This document shows positions 7,812 through 37,502 of a DNA stretch of 37,626 nucleotides, one piece after another. Location: positions 1 to 37,626 of the forward strand of contig JAFONX010000038.1 in NCBI GenBank assembly GCA_017418275.1, given 5' to 3'. Both the position numbers and the translations under genes were made by a program. Under the pieces are notes generated by a model, which saw only the letters and a list, made by a program, of their open reading frames with translations, was not told the origin of the DNA and did no database searches. How positions within the stretch are numbered: position 1 is the stretch's first letter; every line of letters begins with the position of its first letter. Source of the DNA: Candidatus Saccharimonadota bacterium. GTDB taxonomy: Bacteria > Patescibacteriota > Saccharimonadia > Saccharimonadales > Saccharimonadaceae.

Positions 7812-8459
7812 ATGGAAGAAATAATTTTCGTAGATAAGCCAGCCGGCATTACGAGTTTTGGTGCTGTGGCGCGCGTGCGTCGGATTTTGAGTGAGCGCGC
7901 AGGCAAAAAAGTGAAAGTTGGTCACACTGGCACACTTGATCCTTTTGCGACTGGACTCCTGATTTTGATGGCAGGCAAAGCAACGAAAAAAGCGATGGAA
8001 TTTACGAAACTAGACAAGGTTTACGAGGCAACAATTTGTCTTGGCTCGGTCTCAACCACGGGCGATCCAGAAGGTGAAATATCTGAAACTGGCATTGAAA
8101 TTCCGGATTTAGAAACAATAAAAGAGGCGACAAAAAGTTTTGTTGGTAAAATTCAACAAACTCCACCGGCCTTCTCGGCTATCAAAATCAACGGCCAACG
8201 TGCCTATAAACTTGCGCGCCAAGGTAAGGCGGTTGAGATGCCGAGCCGCGAAGTCGAAATCTATTCGTTGGATATCTTAAGCTACGAAAAACCTTATCTC
8301 AAAATCCGCACCCATGTGAGTAGTGGTACCTATATTCGTACGCTCGCCGAAGATTTAGGCAAAAAGCTCGGTTGTGGCGCCTATACGAAAGAGCTTCGCC
8401 GCACGCAAATCGCGGACTATAAGATTGACGAAGTTCAACTCTTCGATTTGCCGGCCTAA
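7812..8459 (+). CDS. truB: tRNA pseudouridine(55) synthase TruB, no PUA domain
   Basis: TruB isomerises U55 in the T-loop of tRNAs. The catalytic aspartate is D43 in GHTGTLDPFATGLL, and KPAGITS, KVYEA, QTPPAFSAIKI and SGTYIRTLAEDLG follow in family order. At 215 residues it is much shorter than the ~300 of E. coli TruB and ends directly after the catalytic domain, so the C-terminal PUA-like domain is missing. The ATG at 7812 is chosen because TATAAT ends 8 nt upstream; the in-frame TTG at 7806 would place the start closer to the -10 than the transcription start. It is followed within 21 nt by prfB. Confidence 0.95.
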   Translation: MEEIIFVDKPAGITSFGAVARVRRILSERAGKKVKVGHTGTLDPFATGLLILMAGKATKKAMEFTKLDKVYEATICLGSVSTTGDPEGEISETGIEIPDLETIKEATKSFVGKIQQTPPAFSAIKINGQRAYKLARQGKAVEMPSREVEIYSLDILSYEKPYLKIRTHVSSGTYIRTLAEDLGKKLGCGAYTKELRRTQIADYKIDEVQLFDLPA

Positions 8460-8464
8460 TAAGA

Positions 8465-8470
8465 TATAAT
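8465..8470 (+). promoter_or_regulatory. prfB leaderless-type -10 box
   Basis: TATAAT in the truB-prfB gap, 9 nt before the ATG at 8480. Confidence 0.7.
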
Positions 8471-8479
8471 TAAATCATT

Positions 8480-9583
8480 ATGTTTGACATCCAGAAGCGA
8501 CTGGGCGACTTGAAGGAGGAATTTGCCAAAATTTGGCAACAGCTCGATATTGATATGCGGCTTTTTGAGATGTCGACGCTCGAAGAAGAAGTGGCCGTGC
8601 CGGAAATTTGGAATAATCCTGAAGAGGCACGTCTCAAAACCACTAAACTCGCCAACCTCCATGACGAGCTTGATGAATGGCTACTTTTAAAAACTCAGCT
8701 AGAGGATATTTCTGGGCTAATTGAGCTTAGCGCTGACGACGAAGGGTTACTGGCTGAAATTAATGAACAGATTACGGCCATGGATGAAAAATACCAGAAA
8801 CTCCGACTCGGGCTACGCTTTACGGGGCGCTTTGACCACAATGATGCAATTCTGCGTATTACTTCTGGAGCGGGCGGCACGGAAGCGATGGATTGGGCTG
8901 GCATGCTGGAGCGTATGTATTTGCGCTTTGCGGAACGCAATAATATTGAAGCGAAAATTCTCGAGCGTACTGCGGGGGAAGAGGCTGGCATAAAAACTGT
9001 CGTCATGGAAATGAATGGGCGTGACGCTTACGGACGTCTCAAATCTGAGCACGGCACGCATCGTTTAGTGCGTCTCAGTCCCTTCAATGCGGACCATTTA
9101 CGTCAGACCTCTTTTGCGGGCGTAGAGGTTTTGCCGGCGATTCGGGATGACTCAGAAGTCAAAATAGACCCGAAAGACCTGCGCATCGATACTTACCACT
9201 CGGGTGGACACGGCGGTCAGTCAGTCAATACGACAAACTCCGCCATTCGTATTACACATATTCCGACCAATACAGTTGTGGCGATTCAAAACGAACGTAG
9301 TCAGTTACAGAACAAAGAAAAAGCCATGGAAATTCTGCGTGGCAAGCTTCAGCAAATGATGGACGAACAGAATGCCGAGTCGGTCAATGAGCTCCGTACG
9401 GGCGAATCTGCTTCGTGGGGGCAGCAAATCCGTAATTACGTTCTGCATCCGTATAAACTCGTCAAAGATACGCGCACAAAATACGAAGAAACCGATGCAG
9501 ATGCGGTGTTGGATGGAAACATTGAAGGCTTTATTGATGCATATTTGGATTACAACCTGAAAGGGCAGACATTTGGCGAGTAA
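8480..9583 (+). CDS. prfB: Peptide chain release factor 2
   Basis: RF2 terminates translation at UAA and UGA. The stop-codon recognition tripeptide is SPF (residues 200-202), typical of RF2 and not of RF1 (PxT), and the catalytic GGQ lies at about residues 245-247. Length (367 residues) is normal. The reading frame is continuous: the programmed +1 frameshift (CUUUGAC near codon 25) that autoregulates many prfB genes is absent. RF2 fits UGA being a stop and argues against a UGA=Gly CPR lineage. Downstream ftsE has its own -10 box; prfB-ftsE-ftsX adjacency also occurs in Firmicutes. Confidence 0.96.
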   Translation: MFDIQKRLGDLKEEFAKIWQQLDIDMRLFEMSTLEEEVAVPEIWNNPEEARLKTTKLANLHDELDEWLLLKTQLEDISGLIELSADDEGLLAEINEQITAMDEKYQKLRLGLRFTGRFDHNDAILRITSGAGGTEAMDWAGMLERMYLRFAERNNIEAKILERTAGEEAGIKTVVMEMNGRDAYGRLKSEHGTHRLVRLSPFNADHLRQTSFAGVEVLPAIRDDSEVKIDPKDLRIDTYHSGGHGGQSVNTTNSAIRITHIPTNTVVAIQNERSQLQNKEKAMEILRGKLQQMMDEQNAESVNELRTGESASWGQQIRNYVLHPYKLVKDTRTKYEETDADAVLDGNIEGFIDAYLDYNLKGQTFGE

Positions 9584-31982: not shown

Positions 31983-32219
31983 ATGTTTCAACCTCAAAGC
32001 CCAGAAGAAATTGAAAGACTTGTCAAATCTATTGCAAAGCGTCTTGCGCAAAACAAAGGCCTCGAGCCAGAACAGTTTTATGATAAACTTCAGCCGCTAA
32101 TTGATGAGGCGGTTGAATGGCAAACGCAAAATCCCACCAAAAGTGCGTATGGGAATTTTCGCGTTGACCTGAAGGCTAAGTATTTGATGCAGGAATTACT
32201 ACGCGAAGCATTGCAATAA
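31983..32219 (+). CDS. Small helical protein of unknown function (78 aa)
   Basis: A 78-residue, probably all-helical soluble protein (SPEEIERLVKSIAKRLAQ; EQFYDKLQPLIDEAVEWQ; KAKYLMQELLREAL). No family recognised. The start is set by the extended -10 ending 6 nt upstream. It follows the candidate small RNA and precedes a two-copy repeat. Confidence 0.68.
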   Translation: MFQPQSPEEIERLVKSIAKRLAQNKGLEPEQFYDKLQPLIDEAVEWQTQNPTKSAYGNFRVDLKAKYLMQELLREALQ

Positions 32220-32227
32220 AAAAGAAG

Positions 32228-32309
32228 GCTTGGCCTGCTATCCGATGACCACAGGTCGCCAACTTTTCAATCGCTAAGCTTGGCCTGCTATCCGATGACC
32301 ACAGGTCGC
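32228..32309. repeat. Two perfect copies of a 32-bp repeat, period 50
   Basis: Copies at 32228-32259 and 32278-32309 are identical over 32 bp and separated by 18 bp. Each contains a CCTG/CAGG pairing. Around the second copy lie 11-bp arms (about AATCGCTAAGC / GCTTAACGATT, one mismatch). Read on the minus strand, the distal copy is followed by a run of T, so it could act as a terminator for the minus-strand pseudogene. With two copies and an 18-bp spacer it does not qualify as a CRISPR array. Confidence 0.85.
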
Positions 32310-32667: not shown

Positions 32668-32676
32668 TGCTATAAT
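32668..32676 (+). promoter_or_regulatory. Extended -10 promoter of the structured RNA/operon
   Basis: TGC-TATAAT (hexamer 32671-32676). With the 6-nt gap typical here, transcription starts at G32683, the first base of the 16-bp closing helix. Confidence 0.72.
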
Positions 32677-32682
32677 TAAAAT

Positions 32683-32814
32683 GTCTTAAGCTATATCAAT
32701 AAAGTCGGATTTTACTATGCTTTCGCCGGAGAAAAACGGCACCGCATAGCAGAAGTTCGGCGAACAGTCCGATTTTTGTGATATGGCTTAAGACACCTTG
32801 CGGTGTCGTTTTTT
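32683..32814 (+). ncRNA. Structured RNA with 16-bp closing helix and terminator (candidate leader/attenuator or free RNA)
   Basis: GTCTTAAGCTATATCA (32683-32698) pairs over all 16 bases with 32779-32794 (one G-U). Inside, 32701-32709 pairs with 32768-32776 (9 bp, core TCGGA/TCCGA). This leads to a junction with two further hairpins: CTATGC/GCATAG (32715-32720/32744-32749) capped by GCCG/CGGC, and GTTC-GGC-GAAC (32755-32765). An intrinsic terminator GACACC-TTGC-GGTGTC plus T6 (32792-32814) shares its first three bases with the closing helix. 28 nt later comes the ATG of the operon's first gene. It matches no RNA I know (not SRP RNA, tmRNA or RNase P). Confidence 0.65.
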
Positions 32815-32841
32815 ATTAATAAAGCCGCGGAGAGGAAAAGG

Positions 32842-34110
32842 ATGGGCAGAGGTAGTAGAAGCCGAGCTAAAAGAAATAAGCGAATGCTAAAGAAAATAGC
32901 GGTTATTGCTGGAATTGTAGCGGCAATAGGAACTGTCTTTTGTCTCTTGGCGCTAGTTGTCGTAAGTGATAATAATGGCACGTGCTCCGCGGTTGGTCTG
33001 AAAGGTGGCATAGCTGGCTGCAAACAAGACAAGAGATATGTTTTTGACAATATTTATTTTGTTGTAGGTAATACTAGCAATACTCCAGCCCCATATCTTT
33101 CGGATACGGTACTGAAATATGTAAGGAATAGTAGCTTAAGGAAAAATCCTAGAATTAAACTCTTTTCGGTTGCGAACAGAGAAACGATTAGCTTCAAGAA
33201 TAATATAGACATAAACGAAGAGGAAGAGACCGAAGATACGCTCTCTAGGATTAAGGGAATTAAAAACGACCTAGAGACATCGATTACGGCGGAACCTAAA
33301 ACGGACGGTGCTCAGTATTATGAAACTATAGTGCGCGCTGGAAAAGCGATCTTGAGTGATTCTGAGAGCAATGAGAAATCGATTATTATTGTAATTGGTT
33401 CTGGACTGTCCGATGGCGGAATACTGAATTTTTCTAGTGGTGAATTGCTCAGCCTTGAACCCGAAGAAGTTGTGAGCTTGCTTGAAAATAAAAACGCCAT
33501 AGACGAGGAATCTCTTAAGGGAGTGCAGATATTATGGACTGGCGTGGGGTTGACTAGCGAACCTCAAGCCGAGCTCTCTGCTCCTGATAAAGCAAGGGTT
33601 GAGAATATATACGATAGTGTCCTTAGGGCCTCCGGAGTAAAAAAGCTGGATTTTGATGATGGTGCGGATGAAAATTTACAAAGCATCTCTACATCTAAGG
33701 TGGTCAAAACTACTCCAACTGCTGACGAGTGTTATTTTTGTACGACTCGTGAGTTTGGGAGCGAAGAGCTAGGTTTTGCTGCTGATTCATACGAAATAAG
33801 TAATGAATCGAAGCTTTTAGAGATATCTCAGAGGCTTGAAGCGGATATGAAAAATACAAATGGAAGAGTAGTGGCCGTAACTGGGTATAGGGCTCGCGCG
33901 TATTGTGGTGATGATAGACAGTTACCGCTTCAAATGAATCGTGCCAAAGAAGTAAGGAACTTTATAATTAATCATACGAACATTGGCGCCGAAAGAGTTG
34001 AGGCTGTTGATGGCGGTATTGGTCCGAACGATGAATGCGAAAGCAGTGGCGTAGTGGACGAGTCAATAGCGGTCAAGAATAGAATTGTAAAAATTAAAAT
34101 CGAGAGATAA
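32842..34110 (+). CDS. Membrane-anchored VWA-like/OmpA-like protein
   Basis: A 422-residue protein with a very basic N-terminus (GRGSRSRAKRNKR), one TM (about 19-40), an extracytoplasmic domain with VWA-like features (VFDNIYFVVGNTS; IIIVIGSGLSDGGILNF; GVQILWTGVGLTSEPQ) and a C-terminal OmpA-like domain (VVAVTGYRARAYCGD...MNRAKEVRNFIINH...NRIVKIKIE) that could bind peptidoglycan. The GSGLSDGG...WTGVG order resembles proteins I associate with Actinobacteria. The start chosen is ATG 32842 with GGAGAGG 6 nt upstream. First gene of a tight operon preceded by a structured RNA. Arginine codons are often AGA/AGG, unlike the core genes. Function unknown. Confidence 0.78.
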   Translation: MGRGSRSRAKRNKRMLKKIAVIAGIVAAIGTVFCLLALVVVSDNNGTCSAVGLKGGIAGCKQDKRYVFDNIYFVVGNTSNTPAPYLSDTVLKYVRNSSLRKNPRIKLFSVANRETISFKNNIDINEEEETEDTLSRIKGIKNDLETSITAEPKTDGAQYYETIVRAGKAILSDSESNEKSIIIVIGSGLSDGGILNFSSGELLSLEPEEVVSLLENKNAIDEESLKGVQILWTGVGLTSEPQAELSAPDKARVENIYDSVLRASGVKKLDFDDGADENLQSISTSKVVKTTPTADECYFCTTREFGSEELGFAADSYEISNESKLLEISQRLEADMKNTNGRVVAVTGYRARAYCGDDRQLPLQMNRAKEVRNFIINHTNIGAERVEAVDGGIGPNDECESSGVVDESIAVKNRIVKIKIER

Positions 34111-34112
34111 GA

Positions 34113-34856
34113 ATGGCGTCAAATGAGGTTTATATCGGAAAGTATATATTTAGCGCAAAAGACATTACGCTGAGTATGCCGATTAGGATAAGAAACTATT
34201 TAATAGCTACTTTTGGCGCAAACGATTTTTACAGAAGGTTTTGTAAAAAGAATGGTATTGATCTTCCGTTGAGAAACGATGTTCATTGGAGCTTGCCCGA
34301 AGAATATAATGTTGAGCACGTCGTGATAGATAGGTTGGGCGAAAGTCGGGACAGAATAATATCTGCTTTTCATGAAATCTATGTCCAGACACAATCTGAT
34401 CTGGAAGATGCTACTGCTGCTCAGAAAAGAAGAGTCGAATCGCAAGAAAAATATCTTGAACTTGAGCGAGCGAAATTGGAACAGTATATATCGGACAGGC
34501 AAAAGTCAAAGGATGCGCAAGAGCTGATATTTTTAGACTCGAAGATAAAGACCCAAGAATCGCTCGTTAGTAACCAAGAGTTTTTGCTCGATGAAATGGA
34601 AGCGGAGCTGTCTCGGTATGAGAGTATAGAAGAGATAAATTTCGAAAACTGGAATGATCAACTTAAAAATATTGAAGATGAAATAACGAGCGAGACTTTC
34701 AAGTTTATTATGAGGTTAGGTCGAAAAGTCAAAAAGAAACTTAGTTACTCCGAATTTCAGTACATAAAACCAGAATACTCCGAAAAAGTTCATATGATCG
34801 TGCAGATGTCGAAGCCTTCGATTGTGCATAAGGCTAAAGTTAAAAAAGTAAAATAG
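34113..34856 (+). CDS. Coiled-coil protein of unknown function (247 aa)
   Basis: No family recognised. Residues about 1-80 look globular (IGKYIFSAKDITLSMPIRIRNYLIATFG), about 80-200 form a long, highly charged coiled coil, and the C-terminus is basic (SIVHKAKVKKVK). No signal peptide or TM, so presumably cytoplasmic. It starts 2 nt after the OmpA-like gene and is followed 7 nt later by another coiled-coil gene, so the products are probably made together and may form a complex with the membrane proteins of the operon. Confidence 0.7.
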   Translation: MASNEVYIGKYIFSAKDITLSMPIRIRNYLIATFGANDFYRRFCKKNGIDLPLRNDVHWSLPEEYNVEHVVIDRLGESRDRIISAFHEIYVQTQSDLEDATAAQKRRVESQEKYLELERAKLEQYISDRQKSKDAQELIFLDSKIKTQESLVSNQEFLLDEMEAELSRYESIEEINFENWNDQLKNIEDEITSETFKFIMRLGRKVKKKLSYSEFQYIKPEYSEKVHMIVQMSKPSIVHKAKVKKVK

Positions 34857-34863
34857 GGGTACC

Positions 34864-35337
34864 ATGAGAGAAGTTAAGATTAAGAGTAAATATGACGAGG
34901 ACGAGTCATTCGATTATAAGGATACTCCTAAGATTTTTAAATCCGTAACTAATAAAACAATCCAGCGTCTGAGAAATTTTTGTTTAAAAAGAAACAAAAT
35001 TGAGAGTAAAGATGAGTGGAAGACCGGTACGCTAAAAGCGATGCTGGAAAGTGTTGCTGGGCGTTTTGAGCCGGCCCATCAGAGACTAGTAGGGGATTAT
35101 TCTTCTAGGCTGTCAAATCTGGAGAATGCGTATGTGTCTGGGGTTGCTGACTTGAATGCTCAGATAATCGAATTTGAGTCTCAAATAAATGAGCATACTA
35201 TACTTTTTGAAGAATATTCGAGGTTGTATAAGAAAATAATTAAAGAAGACCTGCCAGCTGACCTCGCTTTTGATACTCGGAAGCTAGAGGAGATAAAAGC
35301 GGATTGTAATAAATTGGAGGAGCGAATTAATGGATAA
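34864..35337 (+). CDS. Coiled-coil protein of unknown function (157 aa)
   Basis: No family recognised. A charged N-terminus (KIKSKYDEDESFDYKD) is followed by helical segments and a C-terminal coiled coil (about 75-155; NLENAYVSGVADLNAQIIEFESQINEH, KLEEIKADCNKLEERI). GGGG occurs 6 nt before the ATG. The end overlaps the start of the next gene by 8 nt, implying coupled translation with the four-TM protein. Confidence 0.68.
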   Translation: MREVKIKSKYDEDESFDYKDTPKIFKSVTNKTIQRLRNFCLKRNKIESKDEWKTGTLKAMLESVAGRFEPAHQRLVGDYSSRLSNLENAYVSGVADLNAQIIEFESQINEHTILFEEYSRLYKKIIKEDLPADLAFDTRKLEEIKADCNKLEERING

Positions 35338-36112
35338 TGAATATAAGGATTATGAATTTCCTGTTCAAAATGTCATAACTATTATAGTATGTTTTGCTCT
35401 AGCCGTACTGGACATGATGTTTTTATATAAGGCTCTTCAGAGGGTCGCAGGTTCTATTCTGGGTAGCACTGATCAGGCCGGTATCTTTATGATTGTTGCA
35501 TTTATTATCGCTACAGTGGCTAACTATACGGCATATAAATGGGGCCAGCAAAACGGAAAGAGAATGGCGAAGAAGGCTATCAATAAGCATAGCCTCGGTT
35601 CATTTGTTGCATGGGCGGCAATTGGTATTTCTTATTTTGTAATAAGGGTCATAGACTTGACCAAGTCGATGGAAAACGGAGAAACGAATATTGTCGGACA
35701 TATCGTAGTTATGGGTATCTTGGCAATTTCGTATATTGGCACCGGGGCATTAATCCAATCGTCCGCACGGGAGATATTTGATGCAGAATTATCGGCTATT
35801 CGTAAAGCTAAGAAGAGATTCGAGAAAGCAAATGAGGACTTGGCGGATAGTTATGCAGACTTGAAAGAATCAATCGGCATTTTAAAAAGCTATGATATTA
35901 ACTATAAAACTCTTGATGTGCAGTATAGGAAGTGCTTAACATCCATGATTCGTACAGAGAATGCCACTATGTCGGTGATAGTTGGAAGAATGTTGGCGAA
36001 ACACAGCGATATTAACCCTAAACTTGCGGATGAAATATTGAAGGAAGTTATTAATGCAAGAAATGATAAATGGCTAGAGCAAGAGGTGGCAAAAAGTGTC
36101 AAGGGTATGTAA
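35330..36112 (+). CDS. Four-TM protein with cytoplasmic coiled-coil tail
   Basis: A 260-residue protein with hydrophobic helices at about 15-37, 50-69, 88-108 and 120-143, joined by a basic cytoplasmic loop (KWGQQNGKRMAKKAINKH), then a C-terminal helical tail of about 115 residues with coiled-coil character (AELSAIRKAKKRFEKANEDLADSY). No family recognised. The loop between TM2 and TM3 is too short for a MotA/ZorA motor subunit. GGAGGAG lies about 8 nt before ATG. It may be the membrane hub that the coiled-coil proteins of the operon attach to. Confidence 0.7.
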   Translation: MDNEYKDYEFPVQNVITIIVCFALAVLDMMFLYKALQRVAGSILGSTDQAGIFMIVAFIIATVANYTAYKWGQQNGKRMAKKAINKHSLGSFVAWAAIGISYFVIRVIDLTKSMENGETNIVGHIVVMGILAISYIGTGALIQSSAREIFDAELSAIRKAKKRFEKANEDLADSYADLKESIGILKSYDINYKTLDVQYRKCLTSMIRTENATMSVIVGRMLAKHSDINPKLADEILKEVINARNDKWLEQEVAKSVKGM

Positions 36113-36809
36113 GGACCTAGATAGTCCAATTGAGGATTTCTTCATAATTTGCGGTGCCATCGCCTTTGTTGCTCTATGTGTGTTTGGGATTGTCTATGCT
36201 GTTCGTTGGGTAAGCTACAACGTTCGAAATTCACAAAAGGATAACCCTTCGGTTATTAGCGAAGAACCGGGCGGGTCGAATCAGGCGTTGCCAGAAGCCG
36301 CACCGAATAATGAGGGACAACAGGGGCATGATTCTGGTGATTCCACGGAGGTTTTAGAACCGGATGGAATCCCGCACTTTGCAGTCTCGCATGTTCGTGA
36401 TGGCGATACGATTGAAGTGCTATATGGCGATAATCAGACGCAGGCTATTCGATTGATAGGTGTAGATACTCCTGAAACAGTGCATCCGGAGAAGCCAATT
36501 GAGTGCTTTGGCCCGGAAGCCTCTGATTATACAAAACAAAAACTCCTAGGCAGGGATGTTGGAGTAGAACTTGATAGCTCGCAGGGTGAATACGATAGTT
36601 ATAATAGAATCTTGGCCTACGTTTATTTAGATGGCGAAAACTTTAATCTAGACCTGATAAAGAATGGCTATGGTTATGAATATACCTATGATACGGCATA
36701 TAGATACCAAAAAGAGTTTAAGGAAGCTGAAGGATATGCAATGACGAGAGGTCTGGGGCTTTGGTCTAGTTGCGAGAATGTGTCACCAGTAAATATTAGT
36801 GCTTTTTAA
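36096..36809 (+). CDS. Membrane-anchored thermonuclease (SNase-like)
   Basis: A 237-residue staphylococcal-nuclease-type enzyme on an N-terminal TM anchor (about 15-38) and a Pro/Gly/Glu-rich linker (about 45-90). The catalytic domain (about 93-230) keeps the Ca2+ and active-site residues: Asp in VRDGDTIEV, Arg, Asp, Thr and Glu in IRLIGVDTPET, and Arg in YNRILAYVYLDG, followed by ELIKNGY-like and TRGLGLWS motifs. With the basic segment after the TM (RWVSYNVRNS) the orientation is uncertain, but external placement is usual and would allow cleavage of DNA or RNA outside the cell. GTG start overlapping the previous gene by 17 nt, with AGAGGTGG upstream. Confidence 0.88.
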   Translation: MSRVCKDLDSPIEDFFIICGAIAFVALCVFGIVYAVRWVSYNVRNSQKDNPSVISEEPGGSNQALPEAAPNNEGQQGHDSGDSTEVLEPDGIPHFAVSHVRDGDTIEVLYGDNQTQAIRLIGVDTPETVHPEKPIECFGPEASDYTKQKLLGRDVGVELDSSQGEYDSYNRILAYVYLDGENFNLDLIKNGYGYEYTYDTAYRYQKEFKEAEGYAMTRGLGLWSSCENVSPVNISAF

Positions 36810-36821
36810 GGAATAGGAATA

Positions 36822-37172
36822 ATGATTGCGAGTGATTATATTGGCGGATTAGTAATAGTTCTAGGCATTGTTGCTGTTTGGCTGATAGGATTCTTCTGTA
36901 CGATTCACAAACATGATAAGGAGCTTAAACAGAGATCTAGCCTAGAAAAGATAGCGATTCTTTTACAGTATGAGGGTGCGAGCGTTACGAAAAGCGAGGC
37001 GTATACGCTAGCGTTTTCAAGATTAGTGAACATATTCTATCTTTCGCTAGATTCAGAGATGAAGAAATATAAGCTAGAAGATACTAATGCGGCTTTTGCG
37101 GAAAAACTAGAATCTAATCAAGAATTTAGACGAAGACAGATCGCCGTAATTATGGGTGTAATTATGGGGTGA
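36822..37172 (+). CDS. Single-TM protein, N-terminal part of an interrupted gene?
   Basis: A 116-residue protein with one TM (about 7-28) and a charged helical part (SSLEKIAILLQYEGASVTKSEAYTLAFSRL), ending IMGVIMG at a TGA (37170-37172). The frame stays open without interruption after the TGA for another 109 codons, covering the 95-codon ORF at 37215. Either this gene carries a nonsense mutation, the TGA is read through, or two separate genes happen to share a frame. AGGAAT lies 6 nt before the ATG. No family recognised. Confidence 0.62.
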   Translation: MIASDYIGGLVIVLGIVAVWLIGFFCTIHKHDKELKQRSSLEKIAILLQYEGASVTKSEAYTLAFSRLVNIFYLSLDSEMKKYKLEDTNAAFAEKLESNQEFRRRQIAVIMGVIMG

Positions 37173-37214
37173 ATATGTTCTTCTAGTCAGCACGGAAAGA
37201 AGAAGAGCGCGGAG

Positions 37215-37502
37215 GTGTTTTGGGCTGATGAGATAAAAAAGACGTCGATAGACAGAAAAGATATAACGATTATGAAGAAGGCATATGATGCATCGATAAG
37301 GTGGTGCGCTGATGGGCTAGATCCTTACGATTTGAGTGGTGGCTTCGTGATTAACTGTATGCTAGGGCATTACAACAAAGTGTCGGCAAAAGACATGCCA
37401 GATTTGGCTCAAATGACGATTCTTCTGAAGAGCGTACAAGAGACTATTAAGACGTATAGACTGGTCATTGGAACGGCTATTATGGCTGGTGAGTATAAAT
37501 AA
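37215..37502 (+). CDS. C-terminal part of the interrupted gene, or small separate protein
   Basis: A 95-residue helical, soluble-looking segment (EIKKTSIDRKDITIMKKAYDASIRW; DMPDLAQMTILLKSVQETIKTY). The GTG at 37215 has no spaced SD (GGAG directly abuts it), and the frame continues upstream without a stop to the TGA at 37170. So this may be the C-terminal half of one ~226-residue protein rather than an independent gene. No family recognised. No terminator is seen after the stop. Confidence 0.45.
   Translation: MFWADEIKKTSIDRKDITIMKKAYDASIRWCADGLDPYDLSGGFVINCMLGHYNKVSAKDMPDLAQMTILLKSVQETIKTYRLVIGTAIMAGEYK

Follow-up and report, generated by a model that had tools for sequence, protein, structure and literature searches.

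Near one end of a 37.6-kb contig of a Candidatus Saccharimonadota bacterium (JAFONX010000038.1, assembly GCA_017418275.1), a structured RNA stands before a tight run of genes for membrane proteins, coiled-coil proteins and a nuclease, and the question raised by this locus is whether RNA and genes belong to one system, as an earlier reading of the sequence alone (the original prediction) had proposed. The window analysed was the whole contig of 37,626 nt, one of 38 in an 812-kb genome. Our analysis favours, with moderate confidence, a different answer: the RNA is probably the 5′ leader and attenuator of the operon, the products of the first five genes, A–E, probably make up an accessory envelope complex, and these are two units that are joined here. 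The main survey covered 295 genomes in 61 genera of the window's family and was extended by a named collection and a phylum-wide draw; the genomes compared are metagenome-assembled, the genus labels are the tool's own and the E-values of covariance models are rough.

The RNA lies between an extended −10 promoter and gene A, and its parts are as follows:

32668..32676, + strand: extended −10 promoter TGC-TATAAT, read from the sequence, 6 nt before the RNA start
32683..32815, + strand: whole leader RNA, 133 nt, from fold, covariation and family matches
32683..32693, + strand: P1 5′ strand, with two-sided changes
32722..32728, + strand: upper stem 5′ strand, UUCGCCG-type, from covariation
32737..32746, + strand: apical-loop strand CGGCACCGCA (the 'AT' strand), complementary to the terminator 3′ arm
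32758..32764, + strand: upper stem 3′ strand, CGGCGAA-type, from covariation
32784..32794, + strand: P1 3′ strand, sharing its final three bases (GAC) with the terminator stem
32792..32814, + strand: intrinsic terminator GACACC-UUGC-GGUGUC with U-tract
32799..32808, + strand: terminator 3′ arm UGCGGUGUCG, able to pair with either of two partners but not with both

The structured RNA that had been predicted ahead of the operon was borne out, since the window RNA folds at −54.2 kcal/mol (z −6.9) and none of 200 shuffled sequences was as stable; the z values of relatives were −7.8, −6.9 and −7.4. When 31 RNAs were aligned, 8 of the 11 pairs of P1 were found to be altered on both sides, as were 5 of the 6 counted pairs of the upper stem, which is 76% paired. 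An additional helix, P2, in which the loop strand would pair with an upstream strand, fits the window and was rejected because it is not kept in all clades. Against Rfam 15, the window gave no match at the gathering score and no credible one up to E 5, and three relatives gave no credible match either; the leader RNA is a new family, absent from Rfam. In the open-access papers found on Saccharibacteria noncoding RNA and riboswitches, neither titles nor abstracts mention such a leader.

Over 31 RNAs, the pairing of CGGCACCGCA with the terminator 3′ arm reaches 99.4% paired cells, with three pairs altered on both sides. No shuffle out of 500 scored as high in paired cells, and each RNA's own loop–arm pairing was better than any reassignment among the 16 distinct arms (0 of 5000 permutations as good). 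The loop strand is 10–13 nt long, and examples of the partners are CGCGGUGUCC with GGACAUCGCG, CCUUGCGGUGCC with GGCACCGUAAGG and GAAUGGUUGUCG with CGACAACCAUUC. The terminator stem has at least 5 pairs in 47 of 54 RNAs, and its covariation taken alone is weak. As the loop–arm duplex is stronger than the terminator hairpin in every RNA compared (53 of 53; mean −19.8 vs −8.1 kcal/mol), read-through may be the default state, lost only when the loop is occupied. Such an arrangement, in which a single 3′ arm has two conserved partners that exclude each other, is that of an attenuator. A conserved structured RNA, a terminator directly upstream of genes and two exclusive conserved helices are thus all present, as in an attenuator or riboswitch-like leader, and the interval between terminator and operon leaves no room for a second promoter.

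In the mechanism that we propose, transcription of the leader would start at the extended −10 promoter, and the transcript would fold into a long hairpin with the 10–13-nt strand in its apical loop. Pairing of this loop with the terminator 3′ arm, in a pseudoknot with P1, would block the terminator and let transcription enter the operon; were the loop occupied or sequestered, the terminator would form and the operon would be off. We infer that the RNA acts in cis, that control runs in this direction and that the switch is set by a ligand, a protein or an RNA.

The leader is not peculiar to this operon. A first covariance model, built from three copies, matched many genomes without the A–E operon; its reverse-strand and weak matches were rejected as caused by the near-palindromic hairpin, and most of them were removed by a second model, which reports at E ≤ 1e-4. 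With the latter, the RNA was detected in 77 of the 295 family genomes and 30 of the 61 genera, with up to 11 copies per genome, while the phylum-wide draw gave only two genomes outside the family, both with weak matches. The layout in 20 strong matches is a TATAAT-like box, an RNA mostly starting with GUCU, a hairpin, a terminator and usually an open reading frame (ORF) after 20–80 nt, and most members of the family carry a TGN-TATAAT-like box at that position. Among the cargo genes are those for type IV secretion system pilins, an NHL-repeat protein, a DUF4352 protein and two DNA methylases, one of them paired with a Tsp45I-type restriction enzyme; at locus L096 (4008–5897) the leader RNA is immediately followed by a complete Tsp45I-type restriction enzyme/methylase pair. 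Within the window's genus, alaS precedes the RNA and, on contigs that extend far enough to show it, a pilM-like gene comes after it; the cargo differs from genome to genome.

In G047 and G260, many copies of the RNA stand ahead of genes for large, paralogous surface proteins; every copy has a self-complementary P1 of its own, and between copies of one genome P1 is just 36–38% identical over the first 25 nt. Across loci L117–L134 (G047, G260 and G329) we observed about ten copies per genome, most of those with enough flank preceding paralogous surface proteins with a signal peptide or transmembrane (TM) helix; P1 varies between these copies and the terminator arm is identical. Such multi-copy leaders could let a cell express its surface proteins selectively, one at a time.

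Upstream of A in other operon loci, a near-identical RNA is present in G003 and a clear relative in G321, and an RNA of the same architecture and wholly different sequence is present in G226. The original prediction had counted the RNA as part of the system; it turned out instead to represent a separate leader family placed before many unrelated genes, and directly upstream of A in 4 of 13 operons. Other arrangements were also seen upstream of A. In G319 (locus L032, 4496–4660) there is a different hairpin without a clear local terminator stem, in which 13 of 14 bases of an internal strand are, by eye, complementary to the sequence preceding the U-tract, and which is possibly a distant member of the leader-RNA family. 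At locus L045 (3600–3832), another A operon is preceded, just ahead of its start codon, by a hairpin and terminator behind a TATAAT box, without sequence resemblance to the family, and this layout suggests that attenuator-like arrangements may be common here.

The genes behind the leader are the following:

32842..34110, + strand: gene A, with an N-terminal TM helix, a Rossmann/vWA-like middle and a C-terminal OmpA-like domain
34113..34856, + strand: gene B, a coiled coil
34864..35337, + strand: gene C, a coiled coil
35330..36112, + strand: gene D, with four TM helices and a long C-terminal helix
36096..36809, + strand: gene E, with an N-terminal TM anchor and an SNase domain predicted to lie outside the cell
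36822..37172, + strand: gene F, a small single-TM protein
37215..37502, + strand: ORF G, either a small gene of its own or, more probably, the second half of F

The best start of A is the ATG at 32842, behind GGAGAGG. The coordinates agree with the tight spacing described originally, with gaps of 2 nt (A–B), 7 nt (B–C) and 12 nt (E–F) and overlaps of 8 nt (C–D) and 17 nt (D–E). F and G share one frame with a single TGA between them, and the 42 nt that separate them are stop-free (window 37170–37214); they may be two genes, or one gene that is broken or misassembled, and the contig ends 124 nt past ORF G. The predicted operon of seven ORFs is therefore doubtful in its count at that end, and whereas A–E stood as a tight, conserved unit, F and G, of which no relatives were seen in the other operon loci, lie outside it. 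Apart from the operon, the window has two identical 32-nt repeats, GCTTGGCCTGCTATCCGATGACCACAGGTCGC, with starts 50 nt apart (32228–32309), just after a small ORF (31983–32219); the genome holds these two copies only.

Outside the window, the A–E genes travel together. The profiles of A and D match the identical 11 of the 295 family genomes, in four genera, and the two genes are always adjacent; A–E are syntenic in about 12 other Saccharibacteria genomes, and another genome of the window's genus has the order A-B-C-D-E unchanged although protein identity is just 20–33%. Altogether 13 operon loci were compared, 11 from the family survey and 2 from the named collection, one of the 13 being cut by the contig end after C; the relatives in the named collection are all Candidatus Saccharibacteria, several of them from ruminant gut. 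A is present in all 13 loci, C and D wherever the contig permits, B in all except L040, and E carries an SNase domain in most. Further candidate carriers of A (G070, G436, G034, G035 and G465) were rejected, as their weak profile matches cover fragments only. An origin in a virus, phage or plasmid was likewise discarded: A had no match in IMG/VR or among phages, D none in plasmids and the RNA pattern none in IMG/VR. The genes thus co-occur strictly, contrary to the concern voiced with the original prediction that they might not do so elsewhere, and, in keeping with its claim that no described system has this composition, no known secretion, phage, plasmid or defence module matches B, C or D. 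These results support A–E as a conserved, previously undescribed envelope operon.

The predicted OmpA-like domain of A was confirmed by profile and by fold: the Pfam match is below threshold, the C-terminal domain is backed by further profile evidence, and its fold is OmpA-like with Z of 12–15, including a match to ZorB (8vvn_B, Z 12) over this domain alone. In wall-binding domains of this type, a conserved Asp and a conserved Arg bind diaminopimelate. The Arg is kept in A (R367) and the Asp of 'GYTD' aligns to Ala, suggesting that the ligand may differ from diaminopimelate. The part of A described originally as VWA-like is only suggested to be so by the model, in which alternating strands and helices fit a vWA domain, and by GNTxNS at the position where vWA carries DxSxS; the list of fold matches for A is filled by its OmpA domain. 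In an alignment of 11 A proteins, no acidic residue is conserved in the TM helix. A probably spans the membrane and holds the cell wall via its OmpA-like domain.

For B and C there was no match in Pfam and nothing was added by NCBIfam, PHROGs or PADLOC; D gave weak Pfam matches, nothing convincing in the other three collections (E 0.005 for KwaA in PADLOC) and no useful PDB match by sequence or, from a low-confidence model, by fold (Foldseek, E ≤ 0.001). A relationship of D to cation-efflux proteins was rejected, because it came from single-sequence matches in G027, G042 and G020, two of these loci being without the operon, and was lost with a two-row profile. D is modelled, with modest confidence (pLDDT 68), as four TM helices followed by a 73-residue helix. 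B lacks a TM helix in the window and has two at the N-terminus in relatives from some genomes. In L038 and L039, C and D form a single fusion protein with C at the N-terminal end, and hhalign finds homology of C to that part (E 1.3e-6), which indicates that C and D probably form a complex. D with C, and usually B, would constitute a membrane/cytoplasmic coiled-coil assembly; both this complex of operon products and its topology we infer.

Gene E encodes the membrane-anchored nuclease of the original prediction, with an SNase domain (Pfam E = 7e-25), the Arg/Glu/Arg catalytic set of staphylococcal nuclease in place as read by eye, and an N-terminal TM helix. Across its family, this helix, the conserved cysteines and, in many members, a positive charge at the start place the nuclease probably outside the cell, and E is, judging from these sequence features, probably a membrane-tethered enzyme that faces outward. 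Several E proteins seem to end in a sunset domain, as shown by profile for L032; there the SNase of G319 (8258–9061) has this 'sunset' tail, which NCBIfam lists also as a variant tail of ribosomal proteins L17, L4 and L20. The operon might serve to cut foreign DNA at the surface, in defence or competition, or to degrade host or environmental DNA for nucleotides. Of the DNA-scavenging or anti-phage machine predicted earlier, the envelope operon was upheld, and no result selects between scavenging and defence; the patchy, fast-diverging pattern fits defence, competition or a host-specific interaction better than a core nutritional pathway.

Several observations weigh against an attenuator joined to an envelope complex. 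The U-tract follows the loop–arm helix too, and this helix could itself terminate. The RNA is directly upstream of A in just 4 of the 13 operons, a number that would nevertheless be far above chance given about one copy per genome. The model of D is of low confidence (pTM 0.36). Finally, the nuclease cast as the effector is not obligate: L033 and L038 lack the SNase, and a short excalibur-like protein, named by eye, replaces it in L039, so that the nuclease is not essential to the A–E unit.

Other explanations of the RNA have to be set beside its role as a cis-acting attenuator. It would be unlikely, in our estimate, for the RNA to be a free-standing small RNA acting in trans, with the downstream genes expressed by leaky read-through rather than as targets; its own promoter and strong terminator, its compact stable fold and its multiple copies per genome agree with this, but a same-strand ORF follows mostly within 20–80 nt, in two genomes a paralogous surface-protein gene comes after most of the copies whose downstream sequence is long enough, and the terminator arm of such an RNA need not keep two exclusive partners. 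The RNA might also be an element for processive antitermination of the HK022 put or EAR type, in which RNA bound to polymerase would cause terminators to be ignored along long operons. Here too a compact, promoter-proximal structured RNA precedes a terminator, and put acts without protein factors (PMC9378689); however, put is ~70 nt with two stem-loops (PMC9378689) and does not need the direct pairing of leader and terminator arm, and many cargos are short single genes, which together make this explanation improbable. That the DNA coding for the RNA is a recombination site or insertion module for exchanging cargo, conserved through recombination and not regulation, gains from the wide variation of cargo and from the position in one genus, where the RNA lies between alaS and the pilM-like gene in G003 and G035 at least, joined to different cargo in each. 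It is set back by compensatory helix changes and a fixed promoter place, which are constraints at the RNA level, and by a P1 too divergent between copies in one genome for a site of recombination, and we judge it very improbable. Leader-peptide attenuation, with the ribosome's position on a translated short ORF setting the terminator, appears hardly credible: an ATG and a stop surround the loop strand in some members, but no frame is conserved, and ORFs run over the loop strand in all three frames (25, 16 and 14 of 53 RNAs).

Two further proposals concern the biology of the locus as a whole. The RNA might be a new riboswitch class of Saccharibacteria, through which one signal, such as host contact or nucleotide status, turns on whichever accessory envelope, secretion or defence genes stand behind each copy, with A–E as one such regulated, previously undescribed envelope machine; we put this forward tentatively, as something less than an even chance. 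Slightly more doubtful is that A–E are a dedicated anti-phage system of a Zorya-like kind, in which a wall-anchored membrane complex senses entry and a nuclease is the effector. The match of the OmpA-like anchor to the C-terminal domain of ZorB, the patchy distribution over four genera and the presence of same-family leaders before restriction-modification genes speak for such a system; the lack of a conserved acidic residue in the TM helix of A, the lack of a recognised ZorA relationship for D, a nuclease that is dispensable and probably faces outward, and SNase as the only convincing PADLOC match speak against it.

Saccharibacteria are tiny epibionts, and to our knowledge little is understood of how they control their genes while on a host cell. 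An RNA switch that occurs widely ahead of genes for surface proteins, pilins, restriction and nucleases would offer a handle on this control, and its ligand would name the signal; the same RNA before many unrelated surface and defence genes suggests shared on/off control. If the RNA is indeed a riboswitch class, it could determine which of the paralogous surface proteins is produced in those genomes where about ten copies precede their genes. The loop–arm design leads to simple predictions open to in vitro testing, for which the organism need not be cultured, and the conserved A–E operon is a new target for studying how Saccharibacteria meet foreign or host DNA at their surface.

Among known systems, the fluoride and preQ1-I riboswitches are transcription-terminating elements in which a pseudoknot is pitted against a terminator. 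The leader RNA shares with them a structured leader, the exclusive pairing of the terminator 3′ arm and a short gap to the first gene; it differs in having no Rfam match, in a loop strand that pairs with the arm directly over 10–13 bp, and in being almost confined to one bacterial family. The T-box is also an element that takes part in a terminator switch, and the loop sequence GGCACCGC resembles what we take to be its UGGNACCGCG, a likeness that we treat as a lead only. As a candidate the T-box (RF00230) was rejected, with no covariance match in the window or three relatives; unlike T-box leaders, the RNA has no stem I or specifier that could be seen, and in other clades its loop and the arm vary together in sequence. 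The put RNA of HK022, of ~70 nt and two stem-loops, directs antitermination without protein factors (PMC9378689). Like put and EAR, the leader would be a cis RNA near its promoter that may let polymerase pass a terminator, but its size and fold are other, and it pairs directly with the terminator arm.

As to the operon, Kiwa membership was rejected because KwaB is lacking from it (PADLOC) and the KwaA score of D is weak (E 0.005). With Zorya, A–E share a TM helix with an OmpA-like wall anchor, a multi-TM partner with a long helix and a nuclease in the operon; membership was rejected after the acidic TM residue was found wanting in the 11 A proteins and PADLOC gave no match to ZorC, ZorD or ZorE in the window operon, and the operon differs further in that no MotA/ZorA fold was recognised in the low-confidence model of D and the operon's SNase is probably extracellular. 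E itself resembles the staphylococcal thermonuclease family in its full catalytic set and N-terminal TM helix, to which some of its relatives add a sunset domain, and is distinguished from that family by being embedded in a conserved envelope operon.

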